Shown here: piece after piece, positions 1 to 23,356 of the stretch
Position numbering within the stretch: position 1 is the first letter of the stretch
Layout: each line of letters opens with the position of its first letter
Source: a virus
Length of the DNA: 23,356 nucleotides
IMG/VR virus record: IMGVR_UViG_3300046314_000579
Span: 1-23,356 of that record
Reading direction: 5' to 3' (one strand)
Notes under the pieces: model-generated
Databases searched by the model: none
What the model was told of the DNA's origin: nothing
What the model saw: the letters and a program-made list of their open reading frames with translations, nothing else
Translations under genes and position numbers: made by a program

Positions 1-2
1 TA

Positions 3-272
3 ATAAAAGATGCAACAGAAGCTTCGAAGATAATGGGAGAGATAAACTTACACATGGCTCGTGATATAAAGCAGAGGCAAATACAATGAGATGAGTGAGC
101 AGATGGGATGAAGCCTACTACAGATGAAATCCGCACACTTAATACTACAGTAGACTCAGCATTCAAGCGCGCACAACTAATATCAGGAAAACCTACAGAG
201 CGTATAGCAATAGAAGATCTATCATCATTGAGTCCAAAACAATTAGAAGAAGAGAGAAATAAACTCTTGTAA
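3..272 (+). CDS. C-terminal part of an unrecognised phage gene (5' end outside window)
   Basis: The frame is open from the window edge to a TAA at 270-272, with two TGA codons read as Gly (87 and 96). The visible 89 residues are charged and probably helical, and end in an acidic tail (LEEERNKLL). The segment AFKRAQLISGKPTERIAIED looks like the C-terminal region of some small terminase subunits or DNA-binding packaging proteins, but this is only an impression. ATG codons at 33 and 54 exist, but the coding character continues upstream of them, so the gene probably starts outside the window. A weak terminator-like repeat overlaps its stop. Function is not assigned. Confidence 0.6.
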
Positions 273-342
273 CACAACATATAGTAAATAGCCTCAATTT
301 TCAAGGGGGTATAAGAATCAAAAGACTACATATTGTGTTTTT
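271..342 (+). terminator. Possible intrinsic terminator after the first gene
   Basis: AACACAA (271-277) can pair with TTGTGTT (333-339), and the 3' arm runs into a T-rich tract (338-342). The loop is long, about 55 bases, and contains a smaller CCTC/GGGG pairing near 287-310. It lies between the end of the first gene and promoter P1, where a terminator is expected. The long loop keeps confidence low. Confidence 0.3.
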
Positions 343-351
343 ATTATAAGT

Positions 352-378
352 TTGATTTTCTGAAAATATCCATATACT
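352..378 (+). promoter_or_regulatory. Promoter P1 (TTGATT-N15-TATACT)
   Basis: TTGATT at 352-357, a 15-base spacer beginning TTCTGAAAA, and TATACT at 373-378. The same boxes with identical spacing occur at 4481, 16919 and 19075. CCCCC follows at 392, exactly 14 bases after the end of the -10 box, as at P2 and P3. It precedes the tail-fibre gene at 423. Confidence 0.75.
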
Positions 379-388
379 AATATTAACA

Positions 389-412
389 AATCCCCCATAT
401 TTCTAGGGGATT
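389..412 (+). promoter_or_regulatory. 5'-leader hairpin with C-tract
   Basis: AATCCCC (389-395) pairs perfectly with GGGGATT (406-412) around a 10-base loop, followed by ATTTTATA. It would form at the very 5' end of the P1 transcript, starting a few bases from the predicted start site and ending about 10 bases before the start codon at 423. It resembles a terminator, but its position just after a promoter favours a 5'-end stability or translation-control hairpin. P2 has a similar structure. Confidence 0.5.
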
Positions 413-422
413 ATTTTATATA

Positions 423-2108
423 ATGGCAAACTGACCAAGCAAACAAGTCATTCAAGTCGGAGGAAGTGCAAACGATAAGTGATATTTTGCTGACCTCACA
501 GCACTACAGATAGCATATCCAACAGGACAAAACGGATGGTATGCAATTCTTGGCTCTACTGACACAGTTTGGGTATGGGATAGCGGAACAAGTGCTTGGG
601 TGGATAGTGGATGATCTAGTACATGAACTAACCTATCATATACAGCAAGTGCTAGTAATGGAATAGTAGTAAGCGATACAGGAACAGATGCAACTATCCC
701 TCTTGCGAATGGTACAAATGCAGGACTCTCACTTAACGATTATACAACAGCCGAGAAAACAAAACTATCAGGAATAGCAACAGGTGCAGAGGTAAATGTA
801 AACGCAGACTGGAATTCAGTATCATGAGACTCGCAAATACTCAATAAGCCTACTATATCAGGCTCAAACACTGGTGACCAGACAAGTATCGTAGGAATAA
901 CAGGTACAAAAGCCCAATTTGACACAGCAGTGACCGATGGGAATTTTATGTATATCGGTGATGCTCCAACAGCTCACACGCATCTCCTAGCCAATATCAC
1001 CGATGTCACAATGACAGTGGCGAATCTCAACTCTCTCGACGATGGTGTAAATAGTACGCTTCACTTCCACGATTCGGATAGGGCAAGAGCAAATCATACA
1101 GGTACTCAGCTTGCTTCTACTATCTCAGACTTCACAGAAGCCTCTCAGGATGCTACAGGTTCGATGGTGGATACTTCTCTCGTCTATGTAGATGCGACAC
1201 CGCTATTGACTCGTGCAGCACTCACAGGAGCTATCACAGCTCCACAAGGAAGCAATGCAACCTCTCTCGGTTCGTTCACTACTGCCCAGCTCAACACTGC
1301 TCTCTCGGATAACGATGTAGCAACAGGAGGAGGAACAGCCACAGGGACAAATACAGGCGATAATGCAGTAAATACACTCTACTCAGGACTCGTATCTAAT
1401 GCTACACATACAGGAGATGCAACAGGTGCAACCGCCCTAACTCTTGCTACAGTCAACTCGAATGTAGGAAGTTTTGGACTCGCAGGCTCAGTAGCTCAGT
1501 TCGTAGTCAATGCAAAGGGACTCATAACAAGTGCAGTGAATGTCGCGATATCTATAGCAAGTACCGCAATCTCAGACTTTGCATCCGCTTCTCGTGCACA
1601 AACAGAAGCAGAACTCGTAGCAGGTGCTAACATAACGATAACTCCTTCAGGAGCTGGCGCAACTCGACAACTAACTATCGCAAGTACTGGATGATGAGGA
1701 ACACTCACAGTCCAAGATGAGTGAAGTACACAATCGACAACAGTAACAACTCTCAACTTCACAGGTGCAGGAGTCACGGCAAGTGGAAGTGGTGCAACGG
1801 CTACAATAAATATATCAGGAGGAGGCGGATGAAGTAGTACAAAGGGTATCGCAGAGGTAGACTTCTGAGTAATCGGGCAAGAATCTGACATAGCGGTTGT
1901 AACTGTAACAGATGCGAGCATAACGACAACCTCGTATCCATCAGCAACAATGTACAGTCTAGCCACTACAGACCACGACCCTGACGATTATATGGCAGAG
2001 TGACTAACTCCGTATGTAACAAATATAGTCAACTGAGTATGATTCGATATAGCCGTCAGGGCTCCGAATCTCACTTGGTGAAAATACAAAGTCACTTATC
2101 TCTACTAA
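423..2108 (+). CDS. Tail fibre / receptor-binding protein
   Basis: Reads as 561 residues with about 14 TGA-Gly codons. In the standard code only the middle (from 930) appears as a long frame. The N-terminus has a collar-like repeat (GWYAILGSTDTVWVWDSG) seen in phage fibre and collagen-like proteins. Residues about 114-145 carry the common fibre signature KLSGIATGAEVNVNADW followed by ILNKPTI. The rest is low-complexity Thr/Ala/Ser/Gly with HTGTQL-type motifs typical of trimeric fibre shafts, then a GGGGG stretch before a compact C-terminal head. It should sit on the virion tail and contact the host envelope. It is the first gene after promoter P1, with no Shine-Dalgarno sequence before the ATG. 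Stop is TAA. Confidence 0.8.
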
Positions 2109-2118
2109 CTTATAAAAT

Positions 2119-3603
2119 ATGTCTATCAAAATCGTCGGTAATGCCTCAGGCAATGTAGCCGAAGTAACATCAGCAAACGCCGTAAAGGTTCACCTCGAAA
2201 GTGACGCCTATACAGACCCAATGCTTGTCGGTTCAATCCGTGCAATGGGTGAGGTCGATGGGGGATTCATCACAAATACACCTATCCTTCGTCCTCTCGA
2301 ACTCGACGCTGACTATCGTGCTCGTTTCTCTCAAGACTGTCTATATGATGAAGAGGTATTCAACTACCTTGCACAGAACACAGGTAAACACAACCATCTC
2401 GCAACTACAATGGCGTCTACATGGACGGCAGGTCAGTTCACTACAAACTCTGCTTCTATCACAACAACAACAACAGGTGTACAACTCTCTACTTATGCGT
2501 TCTTCCCTTGTACAGGGACTACAACTCTCTCTCTCGATGCAGAGATAGCCTTCTCGGAACAACCAAAGACAAATACATTCGTAGAATGGGGAGTAGGACA
2601 GGCAGGTACTCAGCTCATCGCTCCAACAGATGGTGTATTCTTCCGCCTCAATTCAGCAGGTCTACAAGGTATATGTTCGTACAACGGTACAGAAACTAGC
2701 ACTGGCGTATTCCCACTCTCAGGAGGAACTGGAACTTGGGTATACACAGATAACAAGCGCTACCAGTATATCGTATACCAGTCAATGGTCGAGGCTATGT
2801 TCTGGGTGAATGATGGAACAGGTGCAGTATTGCTCGGTCGTATACCTCTCCCTACCGCTCAGCCTCGTATGAGTATGGGTGCAGGAGGACAAGTGTTCTT
2901 CAAGCATCGTATCGTAGGTGGTGCGGCGTCAGGTGCACTCCAAGCATATCTCGGTGCATACAATGTCCGTCAGGGTGGTGTCAATTTTACATCTACTCCG
3001 TCAACATCAGGTTCTCGAACTCTCGGTGCATATCAGGGTCTATCAGGTGGAACAATGGGAAGTCTCGCTCTCTACCCAAATAGTGCGAATCCTACTGCTG
3101 CAGTCCCTACCAATACAACAGCGGCTCTCGGCTCAGGTCTCGGTGGTCAGTTCTGGGAAACTGCTACTCTCGCAGTCAATACAGACGGAGTCATCCAGAG
3201 TTACCAAGTCCCAGTCGCATCAGTCAATATCCCTGGACGAAGACTCGTAATTCGAGGTGTTGGACTAATGAGTTACATACAAACAGTTATCGCAGGATGA
3301 CCATTCGTAGCCCAGTGGTCACTCGCATTCGGACATACAGCAGTGTCTCTCGCAACAGCAGAGGCGGCAACAACCAAGGCTCCTCGCCGACAAGCTCTAC
3401 CAGCATTCACACAAGTAGTCACTGCAGCACAAGCCGTCAGTACAATGGTAGCTCAGCCAGGTGGTTCATTTATTGATTTCGGTGATGCTCCTATATTCGT
3501 TAATCCAGGTGAGTTCTTCCAACTCGTGACGAAACATGTTGGAACAGTCGCTACAGCAGGAACTATCGCCCATGTCGTCAGCTTCGTATATGGTTGGGAA
3601 TAA
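2119..3603 (+). CDS. Probable virion structural protein, beta-rich
   Basis: Reads as 494 residues with a single TGA-Gly, at 3298, which joins two frames (2119-3300 and the rest to a TAA at 3601). The N-terminus (MSIKIVGNASGNVAEV) resembles the opening of many phage surface or decoration proteins. The middle (residues about 100-260) alternates short strands and Gly/Thr turns, like a concanavalin/laminin-G type fold. The C-terminus (residues about 395-494) is Ala/Val rich. The gene is 10 bases after the fibre gene and so is probably co-transcribed from P1. Its sparing use of UGA suggests it is made in quantity. I do not recognise the family; a tail or head surface role is inferred from context. 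Confidence 0.65.
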
Positions 3604-3615
3604 TAACTAAATAAT

Positions 3616-4479: not shown

Positions 4480-4480
4480 T

Positions 4481-4507
4481 TTGATTTTCTAACAAAATCT
4501 ATATAAT
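4481..4507 (+). promoter_or_regulatory. Promoter P2 (TTGATT-N15-TATAAT)
   Basis: TTGATT at 4481-4486, a 15-base spacer, TATAAT at 4502-4507, with CCCCC starting 14 bases after the -10 box (4521). Same architecture as P1 and P3. It precedes the head-tail adaptor gene and is the only clear plus-strand promoter before the terminase, so it may drive about 11.5 kb. Confidence 0.8.
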
Positions 4508-4521
4508 AGATATAACTAATC

Positions 4522-4547
4522 CCCCGAGTATTTTTCGGGGTATTTTT
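4522..4547 (+). promoter_or_regulatory. 5'-leader hairpin with U-tract after P2
   Basis: CCCCGA (4522-4527) pairs with TCGGGG (4535-4540) around a 7-base loop, followed by TATTTTT (4541-4547). By shape this is an intrinsic terminator, yet it begins about 8 bases into the predicted P2 transcript and 31 bases before the start codon at 4553. It may stop read-through from the P1 group, act as an attenuator, or protect the 5' end. Confidence 0.55.
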
Positions 4548-4552
4548 CAAAT

Positions 4553-5449
4553 ATGACAACACTACAAGAACTCCGAGACATATCGTACGCAGTCCTCAGA
4601 GAGGAAGAGGATGTTACTGCATACCCGCTTGTTCTACTTGATATGATGCTAAACTCAGCACAGAATCGTATATGCAATGGAACAGTTGTGAATCCTCTGA
4701 ATCAGCAAGTAATCCGAAAAGGAAAACTAGATTTTCTCGATACTAGTGTATTCTACTCGAATGTAGCAATGACAAGCCTATCTATAGATGCTACAATAGG
4801 TGATACTACACTATCCGCAGACACAACAGACTATCCAAGTACAGGAGCGCTCTATATCAACGGAAATATCGTAACCTATACTGGGAAGACTGCTACTACC
4901 TTCACAGGGTGTACTGGAGTATCATTTGCACACCTTGCAGGATCACAAGTATCTATTATATTCGCTCTTCCTACAGACTTCGGATCGATGACTAATATAA
5001 CATACGCTAATAGCTTCAAGCTATCACCGAAGCTCTATGATGATATATGGGAAGATCTCAACTGAAACAAGTGACAGTTTAGAACTGATGTACAAGGATA
5101 CAGAAGTCAGTCACTTGATCCATTCTATACGATTATAGGGGAATACTTCCTTATATTCAACAGAAACAACGCAGGTGATCAAATCCATGTACGATATGAG
5201 AAGAAAGCAACGAAAATGATCACTATAGGTAGTACAACAACTATCCCAGAAGACTATGCAGAAAGTACCATCCCATATCTTGCAATAGGGGAACTCCTTT
5301 ATAACAGAGGGGAAGAGTCACGAGCTGGTGAACTCCTTAACTTCGCTCTCGGACAGGTTCGAGAAATGTACGCACACTATAATAATAGATCTTTCGAGAA
5401 TATCAGCGGTACACAGTACAAAATAGGAAAATCTAAACTCAATATCTAA
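4553..5449 (+). CDS. Head-tail adaptor / connector protein
   Basis: Reads as 298 residues with two TGA-Gly codons (5063, 5072) that join two frames. The N-terminal helix (TLQELRDISYAVLREEEDV followed by LLDMMLNSAQNRI) matches the opening of phage head-tail adaptors of the P22 gp4 / tail-tubular-A kind. Residues about 75-140 form a beta insertion ending GSQVSIIFALP. The C-terminal helices (IPEDYAESTIPYLAIGELL, then a Glu/Arg-rich helix) match the four-helix core of that family. The role would be to dock under the portal and receive the tail hub. It is the first gene after P2, and its stop overlaps the next start in TAATG. Recognition rests on fold pattern and order. Confidence 0.6.
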
Positions 5450-7119
5450 TGTCTTACAGAACAGCAAAACCAATATCCCCTGAACATGCGTTTGCATGAG
5501 GTTTTGTCGATAACTCTCAGAATCTCTTTCTTAAAGACCAGTATAGCCCATATCTTCGTAATTGTCGCCTAGAGTGACAGTCAATCGTAATCCGTCCGTG
5601 ACACTCACTATTCGCTACTCTCACCACAGGGAGCTATCCAAAGGGCATAGGGAGCTATCTTAGGGCAGTATCTGCAAATGATGTACTCGTAGTTCGCCAT
5701 AATAAGAGTGGTACGGAAAAGCTCGTCACTATAACAGAGGCAGGAGTAGTAACTAATATAACAACAGGAGCGAATATTGCGAGTGATAACCGAATGTTCT
5801 TTCAGAATGTAGGTGATGTTATCTATTGTATGAATTGATCAGATAACTTTGGGAAACTCTCAGGAACTACATATACAGTTCCAAGTACAGGAATAGCGAG
5901 CTTTGCACCTGCATTTTCAGTGGTATTTAGTGGTTCACATTGGGCAAGTGGATGGGCAACAAATAGCAACAAGGTATATAAGAGTGTCGCAGATAACTAT
6001 GAAGACTTTGCAAGCACAGGATCAGACTCTTTCACTTTTGGAGAACAGATAGTCGGACTCTCAGCTAATCTCCAGTCATTATTCTATTTTACGAAGAATA
6101 CAATAAGCGTTACAGGAGTCGGAGATATTACAGACACAGCAGGAACACTGACATTTAATACTCGTGCACTGAATGTGAAGGAAGGTGCAGTCAATAACGC
6201 ATCTATAGTAGAGGTAGGAGATGCAACATATTTTCTCTCTAGCTCTAACGCTATATCTAAAATAGCTCGTGGTACAAGTATCAATGGATTCGAAGTAATC
6301 GACCTATCATCTCGTAAGTATGCGGGTATCGATGTTATCATGGGATCATTAGATAAAAACCAAGAGTCATCTTTTGGAGTCTACTTGCCAGATGTTGGGA
6401 TCATAAAATGGTATCTAAAGTCTCTCGGTGCAAGTTTTAACGATATATGTATCGTGTATGACACAATAAAAGATGCTTTTCTCGTAGACTCAGGAAAACC
6501 TTTCTTTGACTCGGTGTACTTCAAGGGATACACATACGCAGTATCTATGCTAGAGCCTAAAGTATATCAAGATGAGGTAAACCAAGATGACGAAGATGCA
6601 GGAATAGAGTTTGAATACTGGACAAAAGAGTTCTATCTATCCGATCCAACATATAAGAAGATACTATGGGAATCTCGTACACTCCTCGATATAAATGAAC
6701 TCGTAGAGATGACACAAGAGATATGGATAGATGGATGACTCGTAGATACTAAAATTATCTATGGAAATACTAAATTTATTTCGTATACTTGGTGAAACGC
6801 TCCATGAAACTGGTGAGATGTAACCGATACATGGACAACATATTGAAGGTATATCCCATGAGCGTATCTTCTCAATACATGATGAATTGGAGTAGATCCA
6901 ATAGGATGACACTCAATAGGACTATCTAACGAATCCATCTCATGAAATGATGAATACCAAGAGATCACTATTCTCAGAACAAAGTGAAATCTCAACGTAA
7001 AATGAAAAAAAATACAATTCAGGTTCTACAACTCGTCACTTGCGGGTAAAGTACGACTCAAAAACCTCGCTATGCTTGTCGAAGTATTGCCAGGTTTATC
7101 TAATAATCTTACGATCTAA
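5449..7119 (+). CDS. Tail hub / tail-stabilisation protein (P22 gp10 or tail-tubular-B like)
   Basis: Reads as 556 residues with about 16 TGA-Gly codons. The start is the ATG overlapping the previous stop (TAATG), which implies coupled translation. The N-terminal two-thirds is a beta-propeller-like chain of short repeats (VFSGSHWASGWATNSNKVY, then SLFYFTKNTISVTG), as in gp10-type hub proteins that open with a 'LRNCRLE.QSIVIRPG' type segment. The C-terminus QFRFYNSSLAGKVRLKNL (residues 523-540) is the usual final beta-sandwich of this group. Between 6736 and 7006, 12 of about 16 glycines are TGA, the densest UGA stretch in the window. It should assemble below the adaptor as the short tail tube or needle collar. 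Confidence 0.6.
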
Positions 7120-7121: not shown

Positions 7122-8843
7122 ATGGCTTTCGAAACTTGATACTTAAGCACACTTAGTGCTAAACTCTCACCATCAGATACTACTGTTACTGTCGCTACAG
7201 CGCCAACAGCTACTTCAGGGCGTATGCACATATACAAAGGTGCTACACACGCATGGATAGCGTATACATGAGTAACTGGAAGCACTCTTACAGGTGTTAC
7301 TTTTGTCTCGCAGACTGCCGATCCTGCAACTACAGTAACTGGAAAGACTTTTCCTGCTGGAACAGCTATCGAACTCGTCGAAATGCACGATCAGATGCTC
7401 GATAAGCAGAACTGAGGTACTATTGGATGACCTGTTACCTTTACTAATGATGTAGTCTTTACAGATACCGTAAGAGATCCAGTATATCTTAATGCTACAG
7501 CTCGTAATATTGCTATCCCATCTCCTTCCAATGGAATGACTGTTTATCTCACTACAGAAGGATATTTTACAGATTACCAAAGTGGTTCATGGCAACAGCG
7601 TGCGAATGGTGCTACTCCTAATGCAGATACTGCAACAGCGGGTAAAGTACAGATCGCTACACAAGCAGAGTTCGATGCAGGTACGGATATCGGAGGTACA
7701 GGCGCTACTCTTGTTGCACCACCGAGTGTTGTGAATAGTCTTAATACTATACAGTATGTAGCATGAGAAGCACTCACTCAGAACAATTTTGTTACTTATG
7801 AGGAACAGACTGCATTTGCAAATATTGCATTCTCTGGCCTTACCACAGATATAGTAGTATGAGATGCAGCAGCACGTACCAGACAATCAATAAGAGTAAT
7901 AGGGAATTGAGTATCTATTAGTACAATAAAATTATCTCTATTAAAAACAGGCGCACCTACAGATAATGTCACAGTAAGAATAGAGACTGATTCAGGATGA
8001 CTTCCTAGTGGAACATTGGTGAATGCCAATGCTACTGCAACTGTCGCAGGGACTGGACTTACTACATCACAAGTAGATACTACGATCACATTCGCTGGAG
8101 CCTTTACTCGTACTGCATGAGTTCCATATCATATAGTCGTATCGAGAAGTGCATGATCTGATGCCGTAAACTACTATAGAATTGGAGGAATAACAAAAAA
8201 TACTCGTGGATTCTCACAGTCTATTCATAATTGAACATCGTGGGCAGTATGAGCAAATACTATATTCTTATATACAAATGATCTTGGTTCCTATAATCTA
8301 CTTTGCGTAAAAACAAATGCATCATTTGCTGATAGTGTAGATTTTATTGGAGTATGCGCAAATACTGTTGCAATCGGATCTACAGCCACTATCCTACAGA
8401 AAGAGATTGTAAATAACTTCTCAGGGTTATCTTCTACTAGTAATACATTATACTTCTTATCGAATACTCCATGAGCAATATCTACTACTGCAGGTACTGA
8501 ATATTGCCCAGTAGGTAAAAATATTAGCACAACGAGTCTGTATATGAATCTATTAGTAAAACTAAATAGAAAAAAGAATATTGTTGTTAGCACAAATAAT
8601 TCCAATATAATCTCATCATCAGTACGTGTTAACAATACAGTTCTAAGTATTACACTTACAAATACTTCATGATCAGGAACTGCGATATATGCTACATCAC
8701 CAGATAATAATACATGGACTACAGTATATTCAAGTGCAGCTATTACAGGATATAGTTTTCAGGTTTTATCATGATCATTATTCCATAGGGTGCAAGTTAT
8801 AGGCGATGCATCAGGAACTGTTTATGCGTATATAACCTACTAA
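7122..8843 (+). CDS. Tail fibre / tailspike-like protein
   Basis: Reads as 573 residues with about 15 TGA-Gly codons. The N-terminal ~140 residues form a beta-rich virion-attachment type domain (MAFETGYLSTLSAKLSPSDT at the start). Residues 174-190 hold GKVQIATQAEFDAGTD followed by a Val-Ala-Pro-Pro segment, the classical phage fibre motif of the 'G-x-V-x-L-A-T-xx-E-xx-A-G-T-D' type. The rest is Ser/Thr/Asn-rich with several aromatic strands and ends in a compact jelly-roll-like tail. It follows the hub gene by two bases. It is the second of three fibre-like genes in the window, so host contact is probably shared among several proteins. Confidence 0.75.
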
Positions 8844-8848: not shown

Positions 8849-8968
8849 ATGTTCATCTCATTCTTTCCAACATCATATGAAACTGGTATCGACTACTCAT
8901 CTCACCCTGATTGTATTGGGGTATATGAAGTAGACTTCGATACTACTACTCAGATCGCTCCCTCGTAG
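8849..8968 (+). CDS. 5' part of a gene split between two frames
   Basis: An ATG five bases after the previous stop opens 39 residues beginning MFISFFPTSYETGIDYSS and ending DTTTQIAPS before TAG at 8966. The composition is that of a real protein, not a shadow. The following bases in the -1 frame continue as LVDGEVIIEKP and run 104 residues to 9276 with no ATG near the junction. Joining the two at the CCC of codon 38 would give a 142-residue protein (QIAP-LVDGEVII). Either one C is missing from the CCC run, or there is a -1 frameshift, or these are two genes. No canonical slippery heptamer is seen. Product unknown; the context is tail/virion genes. Confidence 0.5.
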   Translation: MFISFFPTSYETGIDYSSHPDCIGVYEVDFDTTTQIAPS

Positions 8969-9276
8969 ACTGAGAAGTGATCATAATAGAGAAACCTATA
9001 CAGCCTCCACCTCCTGAAACTGCACAACAGAAGAGGGATCGTGTGTATAATTCTCTCGTAACAGATGATCTCGATACAGTGGATCTCGAAGTCTGAGAAG
9101 ATTTCTCCTTCGAGATAGGCGAACTCATAACAGCTCGTGTCTTCGGTGGTAATCCTCACGCTGAGAAGGCTATCACGAATAAGATCCTCGCTATCACTCT
9201 ATCACTCCTACAGGGGGTCGAGATGACTGAGTGAATGGCCAGCAAGATAGCAGAGGCAACAGCGAAGAAGGCATAA
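8962..9276 (+). CDS. 3' part of the split gene, unknown virion-region protein
   Basis: This frame carries LVDGEVIIEKPIQPPPPE, then a charged mixed domain and a helical C-terminus rich in Ala/Glu/Lys ending at TAA 9274-9276. It contains TGA-Gly at 8971, about 9085 and about 9232. No in-frame ATG occurs before about 9220; the only alternative start near its beginning is GTG at 8977, whereas the other plus-strand genes here start with ATG. It is therefore more likely the continuation of the frame opened at 8849. The family is not recognised. Confidence 0.5.
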
Positions 9277-14496: not shown

Positions 14497-16101
14497 ATGG
14501 AACTCAAACAACGTGTAGAACTCCTTGCTAAAGCTAAGAAAGAGCCTAAGTTACAGGCAATAGAGATAGAGATGTGCAAAAGAGATCCAATATACTTTTT
14601 CAACACCTATCTTAATACTGATAAGAACAAGACTCTTTTTAGTGACGATACACCTGATGTACTTCCTTTTATCCTTTTTCCTTTTCAGGAAGAGTATGTA
14701 ACAGAGGTATGGAGAAGTATAACACAGGCAAATATTCCAGTAGAGGAAAGAGATATTGACGAACTAACAAATGTATTTGTAGAGAAATCCCGCCAAATGG
14801 GCTTGAGTTGGCTTACTTGTGGTCTTTTTCTGTATGGATTCATATTCCATCACCATAAGTACACTATAATCTCTCGAACTGCTGACGAGGTAGACAAGCT
14901 CGGAGATATGGACTCTATGTTCGAGAAAATTCGCTTTATGATACGCAACTTGCCAACATGGATGCTTCCTAAGTGATTTTCTCGTGAGATGAGTAAGGAT
15001 AGGACAAATGCGTACATGAATATCAGTGATCCGAACACACAAGCAAGTATCACAGGGAAAACCGCAAATCCTGACGCTGGACGTGGTGGAACTCGAAATG
15101 CTATCTTTATGGATGAGATGGCTTTTATGCAACACGCAAGTGCTATAAATAAGGCTGCAACCTCGAATACCTCTTGTGTTATCTATAACAGCACACCAAA
15201 TGGCGAAGGTAATGAGTTCTACAGAATGCGTAAGCTCACTATGGAAAGACGAACGGCAGACTGAAAGATCCTCAAGCCTGAGATCAAGTGACTCCGCTAT
15301 CACTGGACAGAACATCCAATGTATGATCAGAACTGGTACGAGAATAAGATTAAAGGAAAGAGTAAAGAGACCATAGCACAGGAGTACGAAATCGACTACA
15401 ACACCGCTATCGTATGACGTGTATACGAGTGATTCCCTAAAGATCCTATGGTACTCGTCTATGATCCGAATAAGCCTCTCTATATAGCAATGGACAATAG
15501 TCACGGAGGAAAAGATCCGTTCGCTATTATTGTTGCACAGCCTGATGGTGCATACTGGAATATAATTGACTACCTAGAAATGAATGCTACTCCTGAAAAT
15601 ATGGCATCATTTTTGACTTGCAATCCAAAGTGAATACTAGAAACGCATCATCATAACTTCCTCGAACGATATAGAAACTATAACTGGCAGAGAGCAACAT
15701 TTATAAGTGATCCGTATGATACAAAATCTGCAATGGGGAATAGTACGATTCTCGAAGACTTCCGAAAATTAGGGATAAATCTCATGCTTCCACAAGAACG
15801 AGACAAAATAGAACAAATACTAACTACTCGAACAAACATATATCGTATTAGATATAATGATAACTGTCTCGATTTTGCATCTGCTATAATGAATGCTCGC
15901 TATCCTGAAAGAAGTGAAACAAGCCAGTCTACAAGTGTACAGAATAAGCCGATTCATGATTGGACGAGCCATGCTAGAACTGCACTAGAATATCTATTCC
16001 AGTATACAAAAGAAAACCCTCTCATAAATAAGGAAAGAGTTGTACAAGATACTCGCCCAACTCGTAACTATTTGACTGGGGAACTCGTGTATCCTAAATA
16101 G
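14497..16101 (+). CDS. terL: Terminase large subunit (packaging ATPase-nuclease)
   Basis: Reads as 534 residues with six TGA-Gly codons. ATPase motifs: deviant Walker A KSRQMGLSW (97-105), Walker B AIFMDEM with D206-E207, and C-motif NSTPNG (231-236). Nuclease motifs: D333 in IAMDNSHGG, D405 in FISDPYDT, and HDWTSHARTALEYL (487-500). TGA falls at positions where the family has Gly, for example residue 160 (LPK-G-F) and the I-V-G-R-V-Y-E-G-F stretch. It cuts concatemers and pumps DNA into the procapsid through the portal. It starts 14 bases after the previous gene behind a C-rich leader (AATCCCCCTTCCCCCT), and its TAG stop overlaps the end of a convergent minus-strand gene by 8 bases. The portal gene follows only after the minus cassette. 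Confidence 0.95.
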
Positions 16102-16345
16102 GAAGTTTTCTATTTACTCGTGTTCAATCTTTCTGAATCTCTACGTAATCTATAAACCTCTTCGCAGGAATAAAGGTACGTTGTCATGTATATTTTCAAT
16201 CTCAATTAAAATATAAATAATCATATCAAAGAAGCTCATCTATTATATAAATAAATTGTTGGTCATCATAACAATTTATATCGTATTTTTTATATATACG
16301 CATTACTAGCTTTCTTGTAATGTATAGAAGTAGTTTATCAATCAT
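16094..16345 (-). CDS. Small unknown protein, third gene of minus-strand cassette
   Basis: Reading TGA as Gly gives an 83-residue protein from ATG at 16345 to TAG at 16094-16096, with five TGA codons. It begins MIDKLLLYITRKLVMRIYKK and has a Tyr/Asp/Gly-rich middle (YFNGDGKYTGQRTF) and a basic end. It is invisible in the standard code. It starts 12 bases after the stop of the gene before it, and its 3' end overlaps the terminase end by 8 bases tail-to-tail. The family is not recognised. Base content is far more AT-rich than the virion genes (9-10 G+C in the 60-base lines at 16201 and 16321), which suggests later acquisition. Confidence 0.7.
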
Positions 16346-16357
16346 ATATAAAAAAGG

Positions 16358-16528
16358 TTATTTAGATAAAATTATATTTTCAAAATCTATATCGTATGAA
16401 ATAGTAAATTCCTCATATATTTCTCATGGGTGTTCTTTAAAATGCTGAATAAATACAGTATCTAATCTTTCCAGATCAGATTTTAGTATATATACTTTCT
16501 TCTGAGTTAATTGCGGATTTATATACAT
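16358..16528 (-). CDS. Small unknown protein, second gene of minus-strand cassette
   Basis: ATG at 16528 opens 56 residues (MYINPQLTQKKVYILKSDLE at the start), acidic overall, with one TGA-Gly in EHPGEIYEE, and ends at TAA 16358-16360. It starts 11 bases after the stop of the zinc-ribbon gene and 12 bases before the next, so the three look like one operon. The first third is a probable helix, the rest a mixed charged segment ending DIDFENIILSK. No family is recognised. Confidence 0.65.
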
Positions 16529-16539
16529 ATATAACAAGA

Positions 16540-16797
16540 TTATTTAATTCAAACCAATAGATATAATACAGTAAATCAACATTTCTCACAAAAATCTATA
16601 TTATACGTAGGCTTATTTAATTCATTGTAAACATTTTCATTGTACTGTTTTATTCGTTTTTCTAAATCTTGTCATTGTGGCGTATTTCATGCAAATGGGA
16701 ATAAAGCACTTATAATAATATGCTCATAATCCTTTTTTTCTCCAATTTTTTCATATTTGAGTTTTCAGCAACATTGGCACTTATAGACTTTTTGCAT
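16540..16797 (-). CDS. Small zinc-ribbon protein, first gene of minus-strand cassette
   Basis: ATG at 16797 opens 85 residues ending in TAA at 16540-16542. Two CxxCG knuckles lie at residues 7-11 (CQCCG) and 70-74 (CEKCG), so a zinc ribbon with a helical insertion (about residues 40-62) is likely. The Gly after each second Cys is encoded by TGA, which is strong local support for UGA = Gly. Zinc ribbons of this size often bind nucleic acid or act as protein adaptors; no specific role can be given. It is the promoter-proximal gene of the cassette, with a leader of about 75-80 bases. A competing frame at 16710-16931 needs a GTG start lying in P3 and is less convincing. Confidence 0.75.
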
Positions 16798-16832
16798 ATA
16801 TAAAAATTATCCCTCTTTTCTACCCTCCTGAT

Positions 16833-16912: not shown

Positions 16913-16918
16913 ATAATT

Positions 16919-16945: not shown

Positions 16946-16983
16946 AAAAACAAGTAATCCCCCGACTCTCTAACTATCACACT

Positions 16984-18807
16984 ATGCTAAAAGTCGAGGC
17001 ATTCGAACAAAAGAAAAAGTATCCAAATTATGTTCCAACAAAAGATGAGATGACAAAAGTAGGATATGTTGCTACTCGTTTTACTGACATGAAAAATGCT
17101 CGTACTGTAGTAGATAAAGACTGGGATACATACCAGACTATGATCGATGCGGTATTTGCTCCATATCCTGACGGACGTAGCTCTTCTACTGTTCCTCTCT
17201 CTTCTGCTATGATCGAGCTATATGTAGCCGAAGCACTCAAGATCCCTACTGATTTTCAATTCCGTAGTGAAACAAGTGAACACGCAACCAACGCTAAGGC
17301 ACTAGAGTACGTATGGAAGTATGACTGGAGAACAAAAAAGAGAAAGAAGGTAATGACTGATGAGGAATATATCTGTGGTGCTTTTGGTACTTCTATTAAA
17401 TATACAGGATTTGAGAGTTCTATCTCAAAACAAAGTGATTATACTATCTGAGAAGATCTCAAGCCAGTTTGGAAAGAGACTGAATTTAAGGATGAAGAAA
17501 TAATCGTGAAGAATATAGATATTCGAGACTTTTATATCGACAATACTGTAAAGGATTCTATCGATGATGCTAGTGACTGTATACTTATCCAGTGGATGAG
17601 TTATGAGAAGTTCCAAGAGCTAAAATCAAACACATTCTATAAAAATGTAGATAAAGTAGCTCCTCGCAATTGGTCTATGGAAGACAAGCCTTTTTCTACT
17701 ATAGAGGAGGAAATAAAAACAGGAGAATATGTACGCCTCACTCATTATTGGAATGTAGAAAAGGACGCATATATGGTAATCGCTAACGAGTCTATGATAG
17801 TACGAGAGCATCCTATGATCTCTACTATGAATGGTCGCAAAGCACTTCCTTTTACTATCCGTGTACTCGGAAAGAAGAACTACTCTATATATGGTCGTGG
17901 ACTCTGTGAGGGGCTTATGATGTTCAATAGTGAAGTCAATAACCTCCGTGAAATACTCATGGATGCTATAAAGAGAAGCAATATGCAGACTCTTGCTATA
18001 GGTAATGGACTGAGTTTCAACGGACGTTCTTTTTCTTATGATAATGAGATTATAACCTTCGATGGAAACCTTGCTAATAACTTTCAACAGCTATCAGGAA
18101 ACCCACCAAATCAAGCTATATTTAGCTATATGACTCAGCTCTATAAGGATATTGCTATCTATATCGGTATAGACATACAGAACATAATCGGACAACCACA
18201 ACAGACAGCATTCCAAACAGAGGTACAGCGTGAAGCAAGCCAAAAACGTGTCAACGTATGGCTGACGAACAGAGACCTCGCTAACGAGCGATTCGCTGAT
18301 CTCTACAAAGACCTCTTGCAAAAATACTTCCCACGAAAAAACGCAGAGTGACTCTATCCAACAGTCGAGATCGAAGGGGAACAGATGGTAAACTGAAAGT
18401 TCCGAAAGAAAAAGTGAAAGTCTATATTCGAGGTAACCCCTGAAATACTCCGTGGAGATATAAGTATAGATGTATTCACGAACACAACAGCGCCAACAAT
18501 AAATGCAGTAGATAGACAGCAGAAGCTCGATCTTCTCAATGCAGTATGAGGAATAGCAAATGGGTATGCTATGGCGAAACAATCAGGAGTCGACATAGAA
18601 ACTATCCTCCCTCTCAAAAAGACTCTCCGTGATCTCGCTAGTGACTACAACCTAGAAGTCGAAAGCAACACAGATCAAGAAGACGTACAGGAGGCTAAAA
18701 TGAAGCTGATGAATGATCTCAAGGCAAAAGCAGGATGACTTACTCCTATGACTGAACTAGTACCACCAACAGAACAACCCCCTACACAATGAATTTTACC
18801 ACAATAG
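16984..18807 (+). CDS. Portal protein (podovirus/P22-like)
   Basis: Reads as 607 residues with seven TGA-Gly codons, ending in TAG. The N-terminal part has the usual helical portal start followed by a beta domain (residues about 170-300). The central stem region contains NNLREILMDAIKRSNMQTLA (from about residue 319) and a FDGN loop. The segment TAFQTEVQREASQKRVN at 408-424 is typical of portal proteins, where it forms the helix before the wing/crown. The C-terminus is acidic and Gln/Pro rich (crown or barrel tail). Twelve copies should form the DNA channel contacted by the terminase and the adaptor. It is the first gene after P3 and overlaps the next gene by 19 bases. Confidence 0.85.
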
Positions 18808-19070
18808 AAGACAACGAAATCAGGAAAGGAGAAATAATCCTTTCCTGAGATGAGGTCGCTGAAATGGTCGCCATAAAGACTATTCTTTTTAAGTTTCTAA
18901 AGAAGTCTAAGTTATCTTTTCAAATCTCTCTCGGTATGTGAAATCACCGATGAAAAGAAAGTGAAGTGTATGCAAAAATAGAAGTAATGGACGAACTCAT
19001 CCAGTCGATAGACTCGATGGAAGAATCACTCAATACCTATACAAAAAATATGAATAGTGAGAAAAAATAA
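18789..19070 (+). CDS. Small unknown protein overlapping the portal end
   Basis: ATG at 18789 opens 93 residues to TAA at 19068-19070, with three TGA-Gly codons. It shares 19 bases with the portal gene in another frame. The product (start MNFTTIEDNEIRKGEIIL) is mostly helical and charged, with a basic Lys/Phe patch near residue 35 and a C-terminal Asp/Glu/Ser helix that could form a coiled coil. A frame this long, tightly coupled to the portal, is likely real, but no family is recognised. An assembly helper or portal-bound small protein is one guess from position only. Promoter P4 begins four bases after its stop. Confidence 0.65.
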
Positions 19071-19074
19071 ATAT

Positions 19075-19101
19075 TTGATTTTCCAATAATATCTGTATAC
19101 T
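19075..19101 (+). promoter_or_regulatory. Promoter P4 (TTGATT-N15-TATACT)
   Basis: TTGATT at 19075-19080, a 15-base spacer and TATACT at 19096-19101. The CCCCC tract is also present (19123-19127) but 22 bases after the -10 box, 8 more than at P1-P3. It drives the scaffold-capsid block through a long structured leader. Confidence 0.75.
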
Positions 19102-19107
19102 AGAATT

Positions 19108-19225
19108 GTTCCTTTAACATTTCCCCCATTATTGCTTGCTTTTTGTGAGTTGTGGTCGGGGGATCATAGCTCGCAGAAAGCAGACAGTAATGTTTGCTTT
19201 TTTACTTTTATCACCCCTTACCTAT
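19108..19225 (+). ncRNA. Structured 5' leader with two mutually exclusive folds
   Basis: The predicted leader is about 118 bases. Fold A: the 13-base arm 19137-19149 pairs with 19170-19182 (11 Watson-Crick pairs and two G-U). Its loop carries GGGGG (19158-19162), which can pair with CCCCC (19123-19127) upstream, giving a pseudoknot. Fold B: 19177-19185 pairs with 19192-19200 and is followed by T residues, forming a terminator. The arms share 19177-19182, so A and B cannot coexist. This is the layout of an attenuator or riboswitch, placed before the capsid assembly genes. The ligand or trigger is unknown; no known riboswitch class was recognised. Confidence 0.5.
19177..19203 (+). terminator. 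Conditional terminator in the P4 leader
   Basis: AAAGCAGAC (19177-19185) pairs with GTTTGCTTT (19192-19200) with one G-U and a 6-base loop, followed by more T (to 19203). It would stop transcription before the scaffold gene unless its 5' arm is held by the upstream stem. Confidence 0.55.
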
Positions 19226-19870
19226 ATGGAAGACAACGTGAATGGAGTACCAACAGAGGCTCCGAAAACGGATAACCCTCCTGAAAATCCTGAACTTGCA
19301 AAGCGTCACGCTGAACAAATGGCAGGTTCTATGGCTGAGGTCGCAAGACTTCGTGAAATCGCTGTAGATAGTGTCGCCAAAGCATCTGAAAAAGATGCAA
19401 GTGCATTTTTAGAGGTTCACTCTAAAGACCCAAAGCTTGCAAACGAGGTAGCTAAAAAACTCGGTTATTCCAGTGCTGATGAAGTGCTTAATCAAATCAA
19501 TAAGAAACCTGAAAAGGCAGAAGATGACTTTGAAACTAAGTACGCTCAAAAGCGTTCTGAAGAAAAACATGAGGAAGCTATCACAAAGGCTCAAAAGATT
19601 CTTGGAAAACTCCCTGAAGATCTCAGAGAAGAAGCGCAAGCATACTTCGATGATATAACAGAAGGAAAGAGACTTGATGAAGATAAGGCTCAAAAATTTG
19701 CAGAAATGGCAACTCTTTATGTGAATAAAGACAACCTTCGCGCTGGACTTCTCGATGACTCCCTTGCTATGCTTGGAAGTACATGAGTAGGAAAGTCGAA
19801 GAAAGTAACCGAAAAGGAACCACAATATGTAGTTCGTGACGGTAAAATGATCTTACTCTCTAATAATTAA
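19226..19870 (+). CDS. Capsid scaffolding protein (candidate)
   Basis: Reads as 214 residues with one TGA-Gly near the C-terminus (about 19784), ending in TAA. The start chosen is ATG at 19226 (MEDNVNGV), because the open frame upstream lies in the structured leader. It is highly charged, Ala/Glu/Lys rich and almost all helix, with a Pro-rich start (TDNPPENPELAKRH) and a basic C-terminus (GKSKKV, VVRDGK) that could contact the coat protein. Size, composition and position between portal and coat genes are those of a scaffolding protein. It acts inside the procapsid and leaves or is degraded later. No protease motif is seen. Confidence 0.65.
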
Positions 19871-19875
19871 ACTAT

Positions 19876-20343
19876 ATGGCTAAAATGGAACCAACGCCTG
19901 AACAGGCAACTCCTAATGTGGATTTAACATCTGTACTAGAAAGACTCGACTCACTTGAAGCAGAGAATAAACAACTCAAAGCACAAGTGAATCCAGAAAA
20001 TAAGTTTGCGAAAGCTAAGGATAAGTATCAGTGACCTTGGAACTATAGCTATAAGCTATGGGGAGATCTCCCTGTATTATCGTATAAGAGTATCAAAAAG
20101 GACAAGACAAAAGACTTTACCTATAAGAATCACCTCGGTGTTCTTGTGAATAATCATTTTCTCGACCTTACTCTTGCTGATGATAGTAAAATCGAAGTAG
20201 ATATGCTTGAATTTAACCTGAATTGTAAACAATCAGATAAGCTCCCTGCGGAGCAGATCTTCGATGGTGTAACAGTAACATGATACAAGTTCAATGTCAA
20301 ACCTTACGGAGAATTTATTGTATCAAAATCCCTTATCAACTAA
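19876..20343 (+). CDS. Unknown capsid-module protein
   Basis: Reads as 155 residues with two TGA-Gly codons, ending in TAA. Residues about 13-38 form a short coiled coil (VLERLDSLEAENKQLKAQ), followed by a mixed domain (FAKAKDKYQGPWNYSYKLWG) and beta strands to the end. It starts five bases after the scaffold candidate. Its neighbours suggest a head-assembly or virion role, but the family is not recognised. Confidence 0.65.
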
Positions 20344-20353
20344 CTCACTTACT

Positions 20354-20710
20354 ATGTCTTATATCTGAGAAAAAGAAATCCAGACTATAGAGGGTACTAA
20401 AGTAACTTTTGTAGATGGTACAGAAAAAGTCTTCACTCCAAAGCAAATAGAATATGTTGTTACTGATGAAATGAAAGATGCAACACAGTTCCATGATCTC
20501 GTAACTTTTAATATTGCCGAGGAACTCCTATGAGTCCTTAAAACGCATAATATGAGAAAATGAGACCTTGATACTGTACTTAACCTTATCGTATCATCAT
20601 TCAATAATAAGTTTCTTATCGCTATTGGTAAAAAATTTGGTACTTTTGAAGAAGGGAAGCATGCTTCTTACTTCGAAGAAAATATCACTATGTCGGATTT
20701 ATTTAACTAA
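20354..20710 (+). CDS. Unknown small capsid-module protein
   Basis: Reads as 118 residues with three TGA-Gly codons, ending in TAA. A short beta hairpin at the N-terminus (IQTIEGTKVTFVDGTEKVF) is followed by helices with a hydrophobic face (LDTVLNLIVSSFNNKFLIAI) and an acidic C-terminal tail. It starts ten bases after the previous gene and ends twelve before the candidate decoration gene. The function is unknown. Confidence 0.65.
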
Positions 20711-20722
20711 CTTTTTACTCCT

Positions 20723-21211
20723 ATGGGAAAAGCTATCACGGCGGTAAACTCGCCAAACAAGACTAGCAACTTCTACCCTGCAGATGACAAATGGGAAATG
20801 ATTATGTTTCCTATTAAGGCTTCAACTGCTATGGAAGAAGGAACTCTTCTTTCTCCTGAGATCGTCACAAATGACGTAACAGGATACCTCACTAAGATGG
20901 GGGTCGAAAATGTTGTCGGTTCTGATTTTATTGGAATCCTCGCTGAACCTATCGTTGCAACTGACTCTGACTATGCTACAGCTGGAAAGCTCAAGGGTGT
21001 ATGGATTCCTAAGTCTATCAACGCCTCTGCATACTTCACTGTTGGTGCTGGTACATTCACTGCTTCCGATGTATTCCGAACTGTCGAGGCTCACTCAGAT
21101 TCTAAGTCTCTCGCTGTAGATACAAAGGGTAAGGGTGCACGTATCGTAGAATTTATCTCTTCCACTCGTGGACGATGTACATTCTCACTTCCTCAGACTG
21201 AAACCGCTTAA
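20723..21211 (+). CDS. Candidate head decoration protein
   Basis: A 162-residue frame with no TGA codon, from ATG at 20723 to TAA. It is beta-rich with a compact middle (PIKASTAMEEGTLLSPEIV, then GILAEPIVATDSD) and ends RGRCTFSLPQTETA. The order small beta protein then coat protein, 19 bases apart, is that of decoration or cement proteins. The complete absence of TGA at about 13 Gly positions fits high expression. No specific family signature was identified, so a different head role is possible. Confidence 0.5.
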   Translation: MGKAITAVNSPNKTSNFYPADDKWEMIMFPIKASTAMEEGTLLSPEIVTNDVTGYLTKMGVENVVGSDFIGILAEPIVATDSDYATAGKLKGVWIPKSINASAYFTVGAGTFTASDVFRTVEAHSDSKSLAVDTKGKGARIVEFISSTRGRCTFSLPQTETA

Positions 21212-21230
21212 TTTTTAACACTACTCAAAT

Positions 21231-22229
21231 ATGGCTATTCAAGTAAGCTCATATGAGCTGTCACAGATGACCGATCTCGTAGATCGCAGTTTTCTTGATG
21301 GACTCAAAACATTGCCTATGGTAATGAAAAATTCTGGAGTTGTTATTTTGGATACAATGCCAAAGAATTCTGGAGACTCTAAGCTTTTCGCTGAACGAGT
21401 CACAACTGACCAATACGCCTCTGTTCGTGATGAAGGTGCTGTAGCTGATGCTGGAGTTGTTCAGTACGGATATGAGAAGGTTGCTCAGGTATACACGATT
21501 GCTAAGACTATCGGTATCACTAAGCGTATGCGTGTAGCTGGTAAGGATCGCGCTATTCTTGACGAGATTACAAACCTCTCTGAAGTTTGTCCTAATACTC
21601 AGGAGCTCGACCTCTCTCACCGCCTCACTTTTGCATGGTCTACTTCATACAATTATAAGGGAACAACTCGTGATCTTACAACTGGTGACAACAAGGCTCT
21701 TATTGCAAATGATCATACCCTCACTGGTTCTGCTACTACTTACTCTAATCAGGTAACTGGTAACCCTGCATTCTCTAAGGGTGCACTCGAAATTGCTGAA
21801 AAGTCATTCGTAGAAGGATCATTCGACAATCTCGGTGTAAAAATCTCTGTAACTCCTTCAGTTCTCGTAACTACTGATGACCCAAATACAGTAAATGAGG
21901 TTCGCCAGCTTCTCAACGCTACTGCAGATGTAAACTCTGCTAACTCTGGTACGTCTAACGTATACAAGTCTAAGTACAAGCATGTTGCTAATCCACGTAT
22001 TGCTACTGACTCAAACGGAGGTGTTGATGCTACTAAGGCAAAATACTGGTTCCTCGCTTCTGAGCGTGCTTCTGACTTCTACATGTGTGAACTCGAAACT
22101 CCATATACAGAACTCATCAAGAGCAACGATTCAAGTGAAAACTGGAATTATCTTGCAGCTGCTACTTACCTTATCTCTATCGTAACTGGACGTTGGGTTC
22201 GCGGATCAAAGGGTGATGGCTCAGTTTAA
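21231..22229 (+). CDS. Major capsid protein
   Basis: A 332-residue frame with no TGA codon and all 22 Gly as GGN, the most conventional codon use in the window. Size, lack of low complexity and placement after portal, scaffold and decoration candidates fit an HK97-fold coat protein. The early helix (SQMTDLVDRSFLDGLKTL), the E-loop-like segment with RVTTDQYASVRDEG, the basic helix (IGITKRMRVAGKDRAILDE) and the C-terminal NYLAAATYLISIVTGRWVRG resemble Mu-type or related coat proteins. Function is inferred from context and fold pattern. It is expressed from P4. Confidence 0.75.
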   Translation: MAIQVSSYELSQMTDLVDRSFLDGLKTLPMVMKNSGVVILDTMPKNSGDSKLFAERVTTDQYASVRDEGAVADAGVVQYGYEKVAQVYTIAKTIGITKRMRVAGKDRAILDEITNLSEVCPNTQELDLSHRLTFAWSTSYNYKGTTRDLTTGDNKALIANDHTLTGSATTYSNQVTGNPAFSKGALEIAEKSFVEGSFDNLGVKISVTPSVLVTTDDPNTVNEVRQLLNATADVNSANSGTSNVYKSKYKHVANPRIATDSNGGVDATKAKYWFLASERASDFYMCELETPYTELIKSNDSSENWNYLAAATYLISIVTGRWVRGSKGDGSV

Positions 22230-22247
22230 TATCTAATCTCTCAACTT

Positions 22248-22658
22248 ATGGCTAACCAGACATTTGTAAACAACATGGGTACAACCTATGTACAGAGAGA
22301 TGTAGTATCATCTACTATCACAACTTCGGATGTAAACATTTTCGAGACAATCGGAAATGGGGTACTTATCGAAAGTGTGACAGTAACTACTGATGCTACA
22401 GGTCTAGCAGGAAGTACCGCTCTTGTCCTAAAGGCAAACGGCGTTACTTTCTTCCAGACTGCTGTTTCAGGACTCGGAGCTAACGCAGTAAAGGACATTA
22501 AGAATGCCTCTGTTACTGGCTCTACAGTCACTGTTCCCGCTGGTACTAAGTATGTAACTGTCGCAGGTACTGTGGCAGTTGGTACTGGTGCTGGCAAGGC
22601 TTCAATTACTCTCGGAGTAAAGAAGCTCGATAGCAACTCTTCTGTAAATCCTCTCTAG
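22248..22658 (+). CDS. Small beta-rich virion protein
   Basis: A 136-residue frame with no TGA, ending in TAG, rich in Val/Thr/Gly/Ala and predicted to be a beta sandwich (segment VTVPAGTKYVTVAGTVAVG). It lies 18 bases after the coat gene and uses the same conservative codons, so it is probably made in quantity. It could be a second decoration protein or a head fibre. A strong hairpin begins just after its stop. Confidence 0.6.
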   Translation: MANQTFVNNMGTTYVQRDVVSSTITTSDVNIFETIGNGVLIESVTVTTDATGLAGSTALVLKANGVTFFQTAVSGLGANAVKDIKNASVTGSTVTVPAGTKYVTVAGTVAVGTGAGKASITLGVKKLDSNSSVNPL

Positions 22659-22659
22659 T

Positions 22660-22698
22660 AGGATTGCTCTATCTCTCTCGGGAGATAGGCACAATCTT
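22660..22698 (+). promoter_or_regulatory. Long intercistronic stem-loop
   Basis: AGGATTG (22660-22666) pairs with CAATCTT (22692-22698, one G-U), and CTATCTC (22669-22675) with GAGATAG (22682-22688), separated by a small internal loop. There is no T-run after it, so it is less likely a terminator than an RNA-processing or mRNA-stability site between two capsid-module genes. It would block an alternative upstream start (22664) of the next gene. Confidence 0.5.
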
Positions 22699-22714
22699 AT
22701 TAACCAACCTATCT

Positions 22715-23005
22715 ATGCAAACTATCGCACAAAACATCACAACTGGATCTGTAGCTGTCGGAACCTCTGCGGTTCAGGTATCGACAGAAACATCATCTAT
22801 AAAAGTCATAATCAAGGCGGCTCTCGCTAATACTGGAATCCTTTATATAGGTAAACTTGGAGTTACTGCAAACTCTGCACCTGCAACTGATGGTTATGAG
22901 CTGACAGCTGGTACATCTATCGAGATCGAAATAGGGAATCCTGCAATTCTCTATGTTATAGCAAGTGCTATCACTCAAAAAGCATTCTTTACTATTTTAA
23001 AATAA
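22715..23005 (+). CDS. Small unknown beta-rich virion protein
   Basis: A 96-residue protein from ATG at 22715 (start MQTIAQNITTGSVAVG) to TAA. An upstream TTG at 22664 would add residues encoded by the hairpin and is rejected. Strands such as VQVSTETSSIKVIIKA and ILYIGKLGVTA suggest a small beta-barrel or sandwich like phage head or tail surface proteins. There is no TGA, as in its neighbours. Confidence 0.65.
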   Translation: MQTIAQNITTGSVAVGTSAVQVSTETSSIKVIIKAALANTGILYIGKLGVTANSAPATDGYELTAGTSIEIEIGNPAILYVIASAITQKAFFTILK

Positions 23006-23011
23006 TCATAT

Positions 23012-23356
23012 ATGGCTACTGTATACCCACTCTTGCCGAATGATCCTATTAGTACAACGTATACAAATATAAATGATAGTATCAATAATCTAAACACTGA
23101 CAAGGAGGAAATAGCAAACAAATCCACCTCAGTCACTACAGACCAAGCTAGCAATACTAAATACCCTAGTGTAAAATCAGTATACGATTGGGCAACTACT
23201 ACTCTCTCAAAATACCTCGGTGATGCTGACTTCTACCAATACTCTATAGTCCGTACAGTCTCAGGAGGTAATCTCACAGTAGCTCTCAAGAACTACGAAG
23301 GCAATGACCCTACTCCCTCTGTGCCAGTTAAGATAATGATAGGAGTAGTAGTGAGG
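23012..23356 (+). CDS. Tail-fibre-like protein, 3' end outside window
   Basis: ATG at 23012 opens a frame to the end of the window (115 codons seen, no TGA). The N-terminal region has the fibre signature EIANKSTSVTTDQASNTKYP followed by SVKSVYDWATTTL, common in phage tail fibre and appendage proteins. It is the third fibre-like gene in the window and the last visible in the P4 group. Confidence 0.65.
   Translation, partial: MATVYPLLPNDPISTTYTNINDSINNLNTDKEEIANKSTSVTTDQASNTKYPSVKSVYDWATTTLSKYLGDADFYQYSIVRTVSGGNLTVALKNYEGNDPTPSVPVKIMIGVVVR

Follow-up and report, generated by a model that had tools for sequence, protein, structure and literature searches.

UGA is read as glycine in a few tiny uncultured bacteria. 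Phages and prophages that use this code (table 25) have been published for Gracilibacteria and Absconditabacteria (Liu et al., 2023, PMC10746230). The code reported for Absconditabacteria also assigns CGA and CGG to tryptophan, and in Gracilibacteria CGG is tryptophan in some members and arginine in others (Shulgina and Eddy, 2021, PMC8629427). The same study describes AGG=Met phages, in two assemblies, and states that alternative codes have been proposed as a means of escape from viruses. A metagenome phage study tested only codes 11, 15 and 4 (PMC9875498), a choice under which glycine at UGA would be missed. Here we analyze a 23,356-nt stretch of viral DNA (hereafter the window), which is the entire IMG/VR record IMGVR_UViG_3300046314_000579. 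The record is classed as linear and is thus probably a fragment; contigs of its relatives reach 43-48 kb, and by that measure the window is about half of a phage genome. At a probability near 0.88, we conclude that this phage reads UGA as glycine and CGA as arginine and stops only at UAA and UAG, that a host tRNA probably reads UGA, that its family has crossed between host codes, and that its capsid genes avoid UGA.

Open frames and stop codons

Open-frame cover was measured from a greedy choice of stop-to-stop frames, each 100 codons or longer. The standard code gives a cover of 69.4%, which rises to 95.5% with TGA open, compared with 75.7% with TAG open and 77.1% with TAA open. Seven frames of the first greedy set, taken to be antisense or spurious, were removed ahead of the counts. 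The 21 chosen genes (7,308 codons) contain 161 in-frame TGA and no TAA or TAG; the latter zero is circular, because frames were picked that way, but the comparison of cover among TGA, TAG and TAA is not. The genes end in TAA (16) or TAG (5). Thus, the in-frame TGA codons and the two remaining stops described in the first-pass annotation are real, given that the gain in cover is specific to TGA. Its statement that almost every gene is broken by TGA is close to the count (17 of 21 genes have at least one) but too broad, as the major capsid gene and three others in the interval 20723-23005 have none and a 494-codon gene at 2119 has a single one.

Meaning of UGA

Frames of the window and of related loci or records (given L-numbers here) were aligned with TGA, CGA and CGG masked, and the residue of the relatives was scored at unambiguous codons. 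At the 56 comparable TGA sites of the window in the first comparison set, glycine is the commonest residue at 35 and aspartate, next in rank, at 5; tryptophan occurs at none of the 56 in any relative. The result is similar in an enlarged set, to which standard-coded relatives were added and from which some pieces were removed (glycine at 33 of 54 sites). Glycine is also the commonest residue at TGA in all 16 UGA-open records, with fractions such as 9/26 in L005 and 94/140 in L021. When all codons were scanned in 13 records, TGA departed from its standard meaning in every one, and in the window no other codon stood out. Within the reach of these tests, table 25 therefore describes the window, with CGA as arginine and no other codon departing (CGG falls outside the test).

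Most of the individual positions at which glycine had been proposed hold up. In the zinc-ribbon protein, TGA encodes the glycine of each of the two cysteine motifs, and it is present in the E-G-H-R-T and T-G-G-L-A stretches of the M15 domain. TGA is present at both named terminase positions, but the glycine at 15415 is invariant among 11 aligned terminases and that at 15430, also put forward as conserved, is not conserved. Among runs of at least three glycines in the first fibre gene, those at 1689-1700 and 1818-1832 include TGA, but a third, at 1326, is GGA throughout. In a relative (L030 4930-6342, from the record of L019), a glycine-repeat protein of 471 codons contains 130 in-frame TGA among GG repeats and resembles a polyglycine-type adhesin. 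The highest UGA use among the records is that of L008, in which UGA makes up 59-60% of glycine codons and CGA and CGG are almost absent.

CGA and CGG are arginine in some relatives and tryptophan in others

The first clue to a second difference in code was the presence of arginine letters at conserved tryptophan columns in the terminase and capsid alignments of some relatives. CGA in the window aligns most commonly with arginine (18 of 29 sites, first comparison set) and with tryptophan at none. The window has three CGG codons, none of them aligned, and two of the three lie 5' of a likelier start codon. Across the window, L015, L002, L004 and L010, 67 of the 142 CGA sites have arginine as the commonest residue and 2 have tryptophan in any relative; at CGG in this group the counts are 6 of 13 and zero. 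The pattern is the opposite in L003, L005, L006, L007 and L019, where tryptophan is commonest at 27 of 50 CGA sites (arginine at 2) and at 11 of 18 CGG sites (arginine at 0). The terminases of L003 and L005 are nearly identical, and both were entered in the CGA tallies.

A column check over five genes in 11 records identified 13 columns in which CGA or CGG of a tryptophan-type record stands opposite TGG in two or more other records; CGA or CGG never occurs in both types of record at the same column. In the all-codon scan, the strong departures other than TGA are CGA or CGG in the five tryptophan-type records. Weaker ones, with small counts or near ties, are CTG to isoleucine (L015, L004), TTA to phenylalanine (L004), AGG and TCC to lysine (L010) and GTA to isoleucine (L005). 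The enlarged set adds a clear arginine reading of CGA in L049 (21/49), one from few sites in L056 (4/8), and a weak one in L047 (CGA 1/5, CGG 2/3). In this set L003 has no CGG site with tryptophan commonest, and L019 has tryptophan at 1 of 3 CGA and 0 of 1 CGG sites, compared with 4 of 8 and 3 of 3 in the first set; thus, the tryptophan call for L019 rests on the first comparison set. Preference for AGR over CGY codons was tried as a marker of the tryptophan code or of the host, and was dropped because it held in the first 13 records and failed in the enlarged set.

A capsid family with three codes

The capsid alignment, used as a search query, brought in 11 more records. Sorting of 24 records (window included) gives 8 that are standard-coded and 16 that read UGA as glycine, with L047, L049 and L056 the UGA-reassigned additions from that search. 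Within the 16, CGA is arginine in 8 (including the window and, weakly, L047), tryptophan in 5 and uncallable in 3. Loci that duplicated a contig already present were left out, as were L009, in which the terminase and portal are identical with those in L008, and the distant terminases L011-L014 and L016. The capsids of the standard-coded relatives (L050-L055, L060, L061) are 35-41% identical to that of the window, over part of the protein only for L060 and L061. The nearest relative is L015 (capsid 95%, terminase 82-84% identity). As read from these alignments, the capsid family is one that holds three codes: the standard code, UGA as glycine with CGA as arginine, and UGA as glycine with CGA and CGG as tryptophan. 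This suggests that members moved between hosts of different codes, and the phage lineage appears to have done so.

The larger tree was built from seven concatenated genes and 22 rows (L061 was dropped for too few columns), in which the standard-coded rows provide the root of the family but fill only 14-34% of the columns. A single change parts UGA-open from standard rows, with support of 83/77. One clade consists entirely of CGA=Arg records (L004, L010, L049, L047, L056). A second, of nine rows (100/100), combines tryptophan readers (L003, L007, L006, L019), two records with too few sites (L018, L021) and the arginine readers L015, L002 and the window, which form a group of their own (100/100 in both larger concatenated trees). 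On this tree a minimum of three changes accounts for the three states, and the 15 UGA-open rows need two changes in the meaning of CGA. A single clade of tryptophan readers is disfavoured in the 15-row set by the approximately unbiased (AU) test (p 0.017; four tryptophan versus eight arginine rows). That CGA changed its meaning at least once within the family is well supported.

UGA is avoided in capsid genes

With each record's own mean share of UGA among glycine codons as the expectation, UGA accounts for 17 of 251 glycine codons in the major capsid gene, against 79.7 expected (z -8.9, 11 records), and for 12 of 154 in the head gene that adjoins it, against 44.2 expected (z -5.9, 10 records). 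Terminase (93/298, 94.3 expected) and probable scaffold (48/139, 40.7 expected) deviate little, and portal is slightly low (111/409, 128.5 expected). Tested record by record, UGA is low in capsid plus head gene relative to terminase plus portal at p<0.05 in 8 of 11; the three that do not reach this level are L003, L018 and L019, and L008 entered with its capsid gene alone. Capsid genes have a larger share of GGT (0.49 versus 0.23-0.26 in terminase and portal) and a smaller share of GGG (0.06 versus 0.10-0.13). We read the shortage of UGA as probable translational selection against this codon in the most abundant proteins. The simplest view is that UGA may be slower or less reliable to decode than GGU and GGA.

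tRNA genes and the probable host

ARAGORN detected no tRNA gene in the window, which is a fragment. A tRNA with anticodon UCA is absent from the window and from the contigs of seven relatives that were read, piece by piece, whole or nearly whole (those of L015, L018, L019, L021, L006, L008 and L004). These seven yielded one tRNA in total, with anticodon TTG, in the record of L018, and Rfam at the gathering threshold found nothing besides it in eight sources. That gene (L026 8046-8132) is called tRNA-Gln by ARAGORN and has an Rfam match; by eye its anticodon stem is odd. Eleven further loci gave two calls of tRNA-Met and one of tRNA-Thr, and no UCA tRNA. The phage-borne UGA tRNA that would mark a suppressor-tRNA phage of a standard-coded host was thus not seen in the window, fragment as it is, or in the relatives scanned. 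The UGA-reading tRNA is therefore most likely supplied by the host, and the proposal that the phage uses a host tRNA-Gly(UCA) agrees with these scans.

We predict a host that decodes UGA with tRNA-Gly(UCA) and lacks release factor 2. The first-pass annotation had named Gracilibacteria or Absconditabacteria, and the combination of CGA as arginine with UGA as glycine fits the former better and argues against the code of the latter, tryptophan occurring in no relative at the 29 aligned CGA sites of the window. Under this scheme, members of the family would have moved between hosts whose codes differ at one stop codon and one sense codon.

Alternative explanations

Frames open at TGA cannot by themselves separate glycine from tryptophan, and tryptophan is the meaning of UGA in code 4, used by mycoplasma-type phages. 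The alignment rejects it (0/56), leaving it practically no chance: TGG codons of the window align mainly with TGG, or with CGA or CGG in some relatives, the 130 TGA of the relative's glycine-repeat protein stand among GG repeats, and tryptophan scores lowest or is unlisted in all six outside profiles compared. Several observations do weigh against the reading we favour. Outside-profile scores for two window proteins, with TGA taken as G, W, R, C or S, do not single out glycine; it is best in 3 of 6 PHROG or Pfam profiles matched under at least four readings, with serine or cysteine best in the other 3, and the endolysin profile phrog_13118 is listed for the tryptophan and cysteine readings only. 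The relatives that define glycine and the arginine/tryptophan split are mostly recoded phages themselves, and one tryptophan stood opposite a window TGA in a first count made before cleaning, with antisense frames still in it. In the column check, one CGA of an arginine-type record falls on a column where tryptophan is commonest and one of a tryptophan-type record on arginine. The AGR preference is 0.88 in L047 and L056 despite their arginine reading of CGA. Finally, L015 (G001:C75) is binned in a metagenome-assembled genome (MAG) labelled Candidatus Dependentiae; a scan of genomes for relatives returned this contig and one distant match. The bin bears on another alternative, in which a phage of a standard-coded host changes code late in infection by means of a suppressor tRNA that it encodes itself, a course already published for certain phages. 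The bin would fit such a host in that none of the 18 ABC transporter matches of the MAG has in-frame stops, so that no code-25 gene was found among them. This result, together with the two RF-1-family proteins of the MAG, leads us to take the L015 contig as misbinned, which is the simpler reading. The entire 43.7-kb contig has no tRNA, only the TTG tRNA was found across the seven contigs, and the relatives' genes for DnaB-type helicases, which are not late genes, are also dense in TGA (30 in L032 5962-7797 and 19 in L033 8618-9871). A late switch is therefore very improbable, and glycine at UGA, read by a host tRNA, is retained.

The history of CGA is less firm. Two or more changes, with reversion in the lineage of the window, are likely but not settled. 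CGA=Trp may instead have arisen once and never reverted, with the nesting of the window produced by a tree artefact or by phage recombination. The rejection of a single origin is moderate (the AU p of 0.017 is accompanied by 0.037, 0.039 and 0.023 against a single tryptophan clade in the 12-row set); p falls to 3e-6 if records with too few CGA are counted as tryptophan-type, but that grouping rested on the codon preference later dropped. The fork that places L003 and L007 outside has support of 91/96, and neither the 12-row tree nor the portal tree fixes the branching order within the clade. In the terminase tree it is L006, rather than L002, that joins the window and L015 (98/99; 92/90 in a second tree), a conflict that may mean recombination; a terminase tree rooted on five standard phages does not resolve the inside of the family. 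Against a single origin, the group of the window, L015 and L002 and the nine-row clade are both at 100/100 in the two larger concatenated trees, and the terminase arrangement likewise mixes the two readings of CGA. We consider a single origin the weaker possibility, at about one chance in three. The specific course in which the lineage of the window came from CGA/CGG=Trp phages and returned to CGA=Arg hosts, recoding its tryptophan and arginine codons, is tentative, at slightly less than even odds. The capsid genes, for their part, could be poor in UGA for a reason other than translation, for example recent exchange with standard-coded phages, with which the family has the capsid gene in common. 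UGA-open records are grouped apart from the standard ones in the tree (83/77), and the rise of GGT and fall of GGG is a pattern of codon preference. We regard exchange as rather unlikely and favour translational selection.

Gene content of the window

By its terminase, portal and capsid, the last assigned from a predicted structure, the window is that of a tailed phage with an HK97-type capsid. Genes are on the plus strand unless stated otherwise. The major capsid gene (21231-22229) lacks TGA; its product, modelled with low confidence (mean predicted local distance difference test, pLDDT, 59.7), matches HK97-type capsids in Foldseek (best E 2.6e-7; query template modelling (TM) scores of 0.34-0.42 among the 50 matches listed), which suggests an HK97-type fold. 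Also without TGA are a conserved head-region protein of 162 codons (20723-21211), a small protein 3' of the capsid gene (22248-22658) and another (22664-23005) for which a later ATG is probably the true start.

The terminase large subunit (14497-16101; 6 TGA) was identified by phrog_5989 (E 2e-24) and by alignments, and the portal protein (16984-18807; 7 TGA) by phrog_332 and phrog_156. A search with the lone portal sequence gave zero matches, but an alignment-based search did find relatives. Between the two are two small minus-strand genes (16094-16797) that together have 10 TGA and 1 GGN: one encodes a small protein with 5 TGA and zero GGN (16094-16345) and the other the zinc-ribbon-like protein (16540-16797). 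Downstream of portal are genes for a small conserved protein (18735-19070; 4 TGA), a probable scaffold, assigned by position only (19136-19870; 1 TGA, a later ATG probably being the true start), and two head-region proteins conserved in relatives (19876-20343, 2 TGA; 20294-20710, 3 TGA).

Upstream of the terminase, a fibre-like gene (423-2108; 14 TGA), recognized from sequence character with glycine runs partly encoded by TGA, and a gene for a probable virion protein, assigned by position (2119-3603; 1 TGA versus 56 GGN), have no Pfam or PHROG match. Next are genes for an unknown protein with a homologue in L015 (3616-4479; 7 TGA), a tail-region protein with partial PHROG matches to baseplate and unknown families (4553-5449; 2 TGA), a virion structural protein (5449-7119; 16 TGA; phrog_3287, E 2e-4), a protein whose position suggests a fibre or tail component (7122-8843; 15 TGA) and a small unknown protein with a TTG start (8911-9276; 4 TGA). 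A domain match places an M15 peptidase (VanY) domain within a large protein of 895 codons in the virion gene region (9321-12008; 27 TGA), possibly a virion-borne wall enzyme. The neighbouring gene encodes a large protein of unknown function (12011-14482; 42 TGA) and has the only CGG of the window in a credible frame.

Comparison with known systems

Code-25 phages were already known; new is a capsid family that spans three codes. The window resembles the published code-25 phages (PMC10746230) in its dense in-frame TGA, high code-25 coding density and probable dependence on the host code; it differs in that their hosts were linked by spacers, whereas the host of the window is predicted from its code. 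The words CGA and CGG were not found in the main text of that paper, so the arginine/tryptophan split is seemingly untreated there. Its suggestion that use of UGA is a codon optimization that aids translation in these hosts is one on which the avoidance in capsid genes bears, since the capsid and head genes have the lowest UGA of the five families compared. The terminase with the top bit score to that of the window, among the best 30 of 675 phage records, is that of Pseudoalteromonas phage TW1 (32% identity over 59%), a phage that, unlike the window, uses the standard code; terminase alone was compared. In open-access titles and the openings of abstracts, with most subscription papers and bioRxiv outside the search, we found no report of phages with CGA/CGG as tryptophan or of a phage family that switches a sense codon.

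The Absconditabacteria code (Shulgina and Eddy, 2021, PMC8629427) is the same reading as in L003, L005, L006, L007 and L019, but it was reported for bacterial genomes, and the window itself has CGA as arginine. Like the AGG=Met phages of that study, the family is adapted to a host sense-codon reassignment without a tRNA of its own for it; it differs in codon and host, and in the description of those phages no switching within one phage family is mentioned. Terminases that are 65% identical, those of the window and L006, fall on the two sides of the CGA split. This would show that a sense-codon change is no lasting barrier to viruses, in contrast to the idea of escape stated in PMC8629427. If the tentative return to CGA=Arg hosts is true, a single capsid family would have passed a change of stop codon in one step and, at least twice, a change of sense codon in others. 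The family offers a genome set in which the path can be followed codon by codon.

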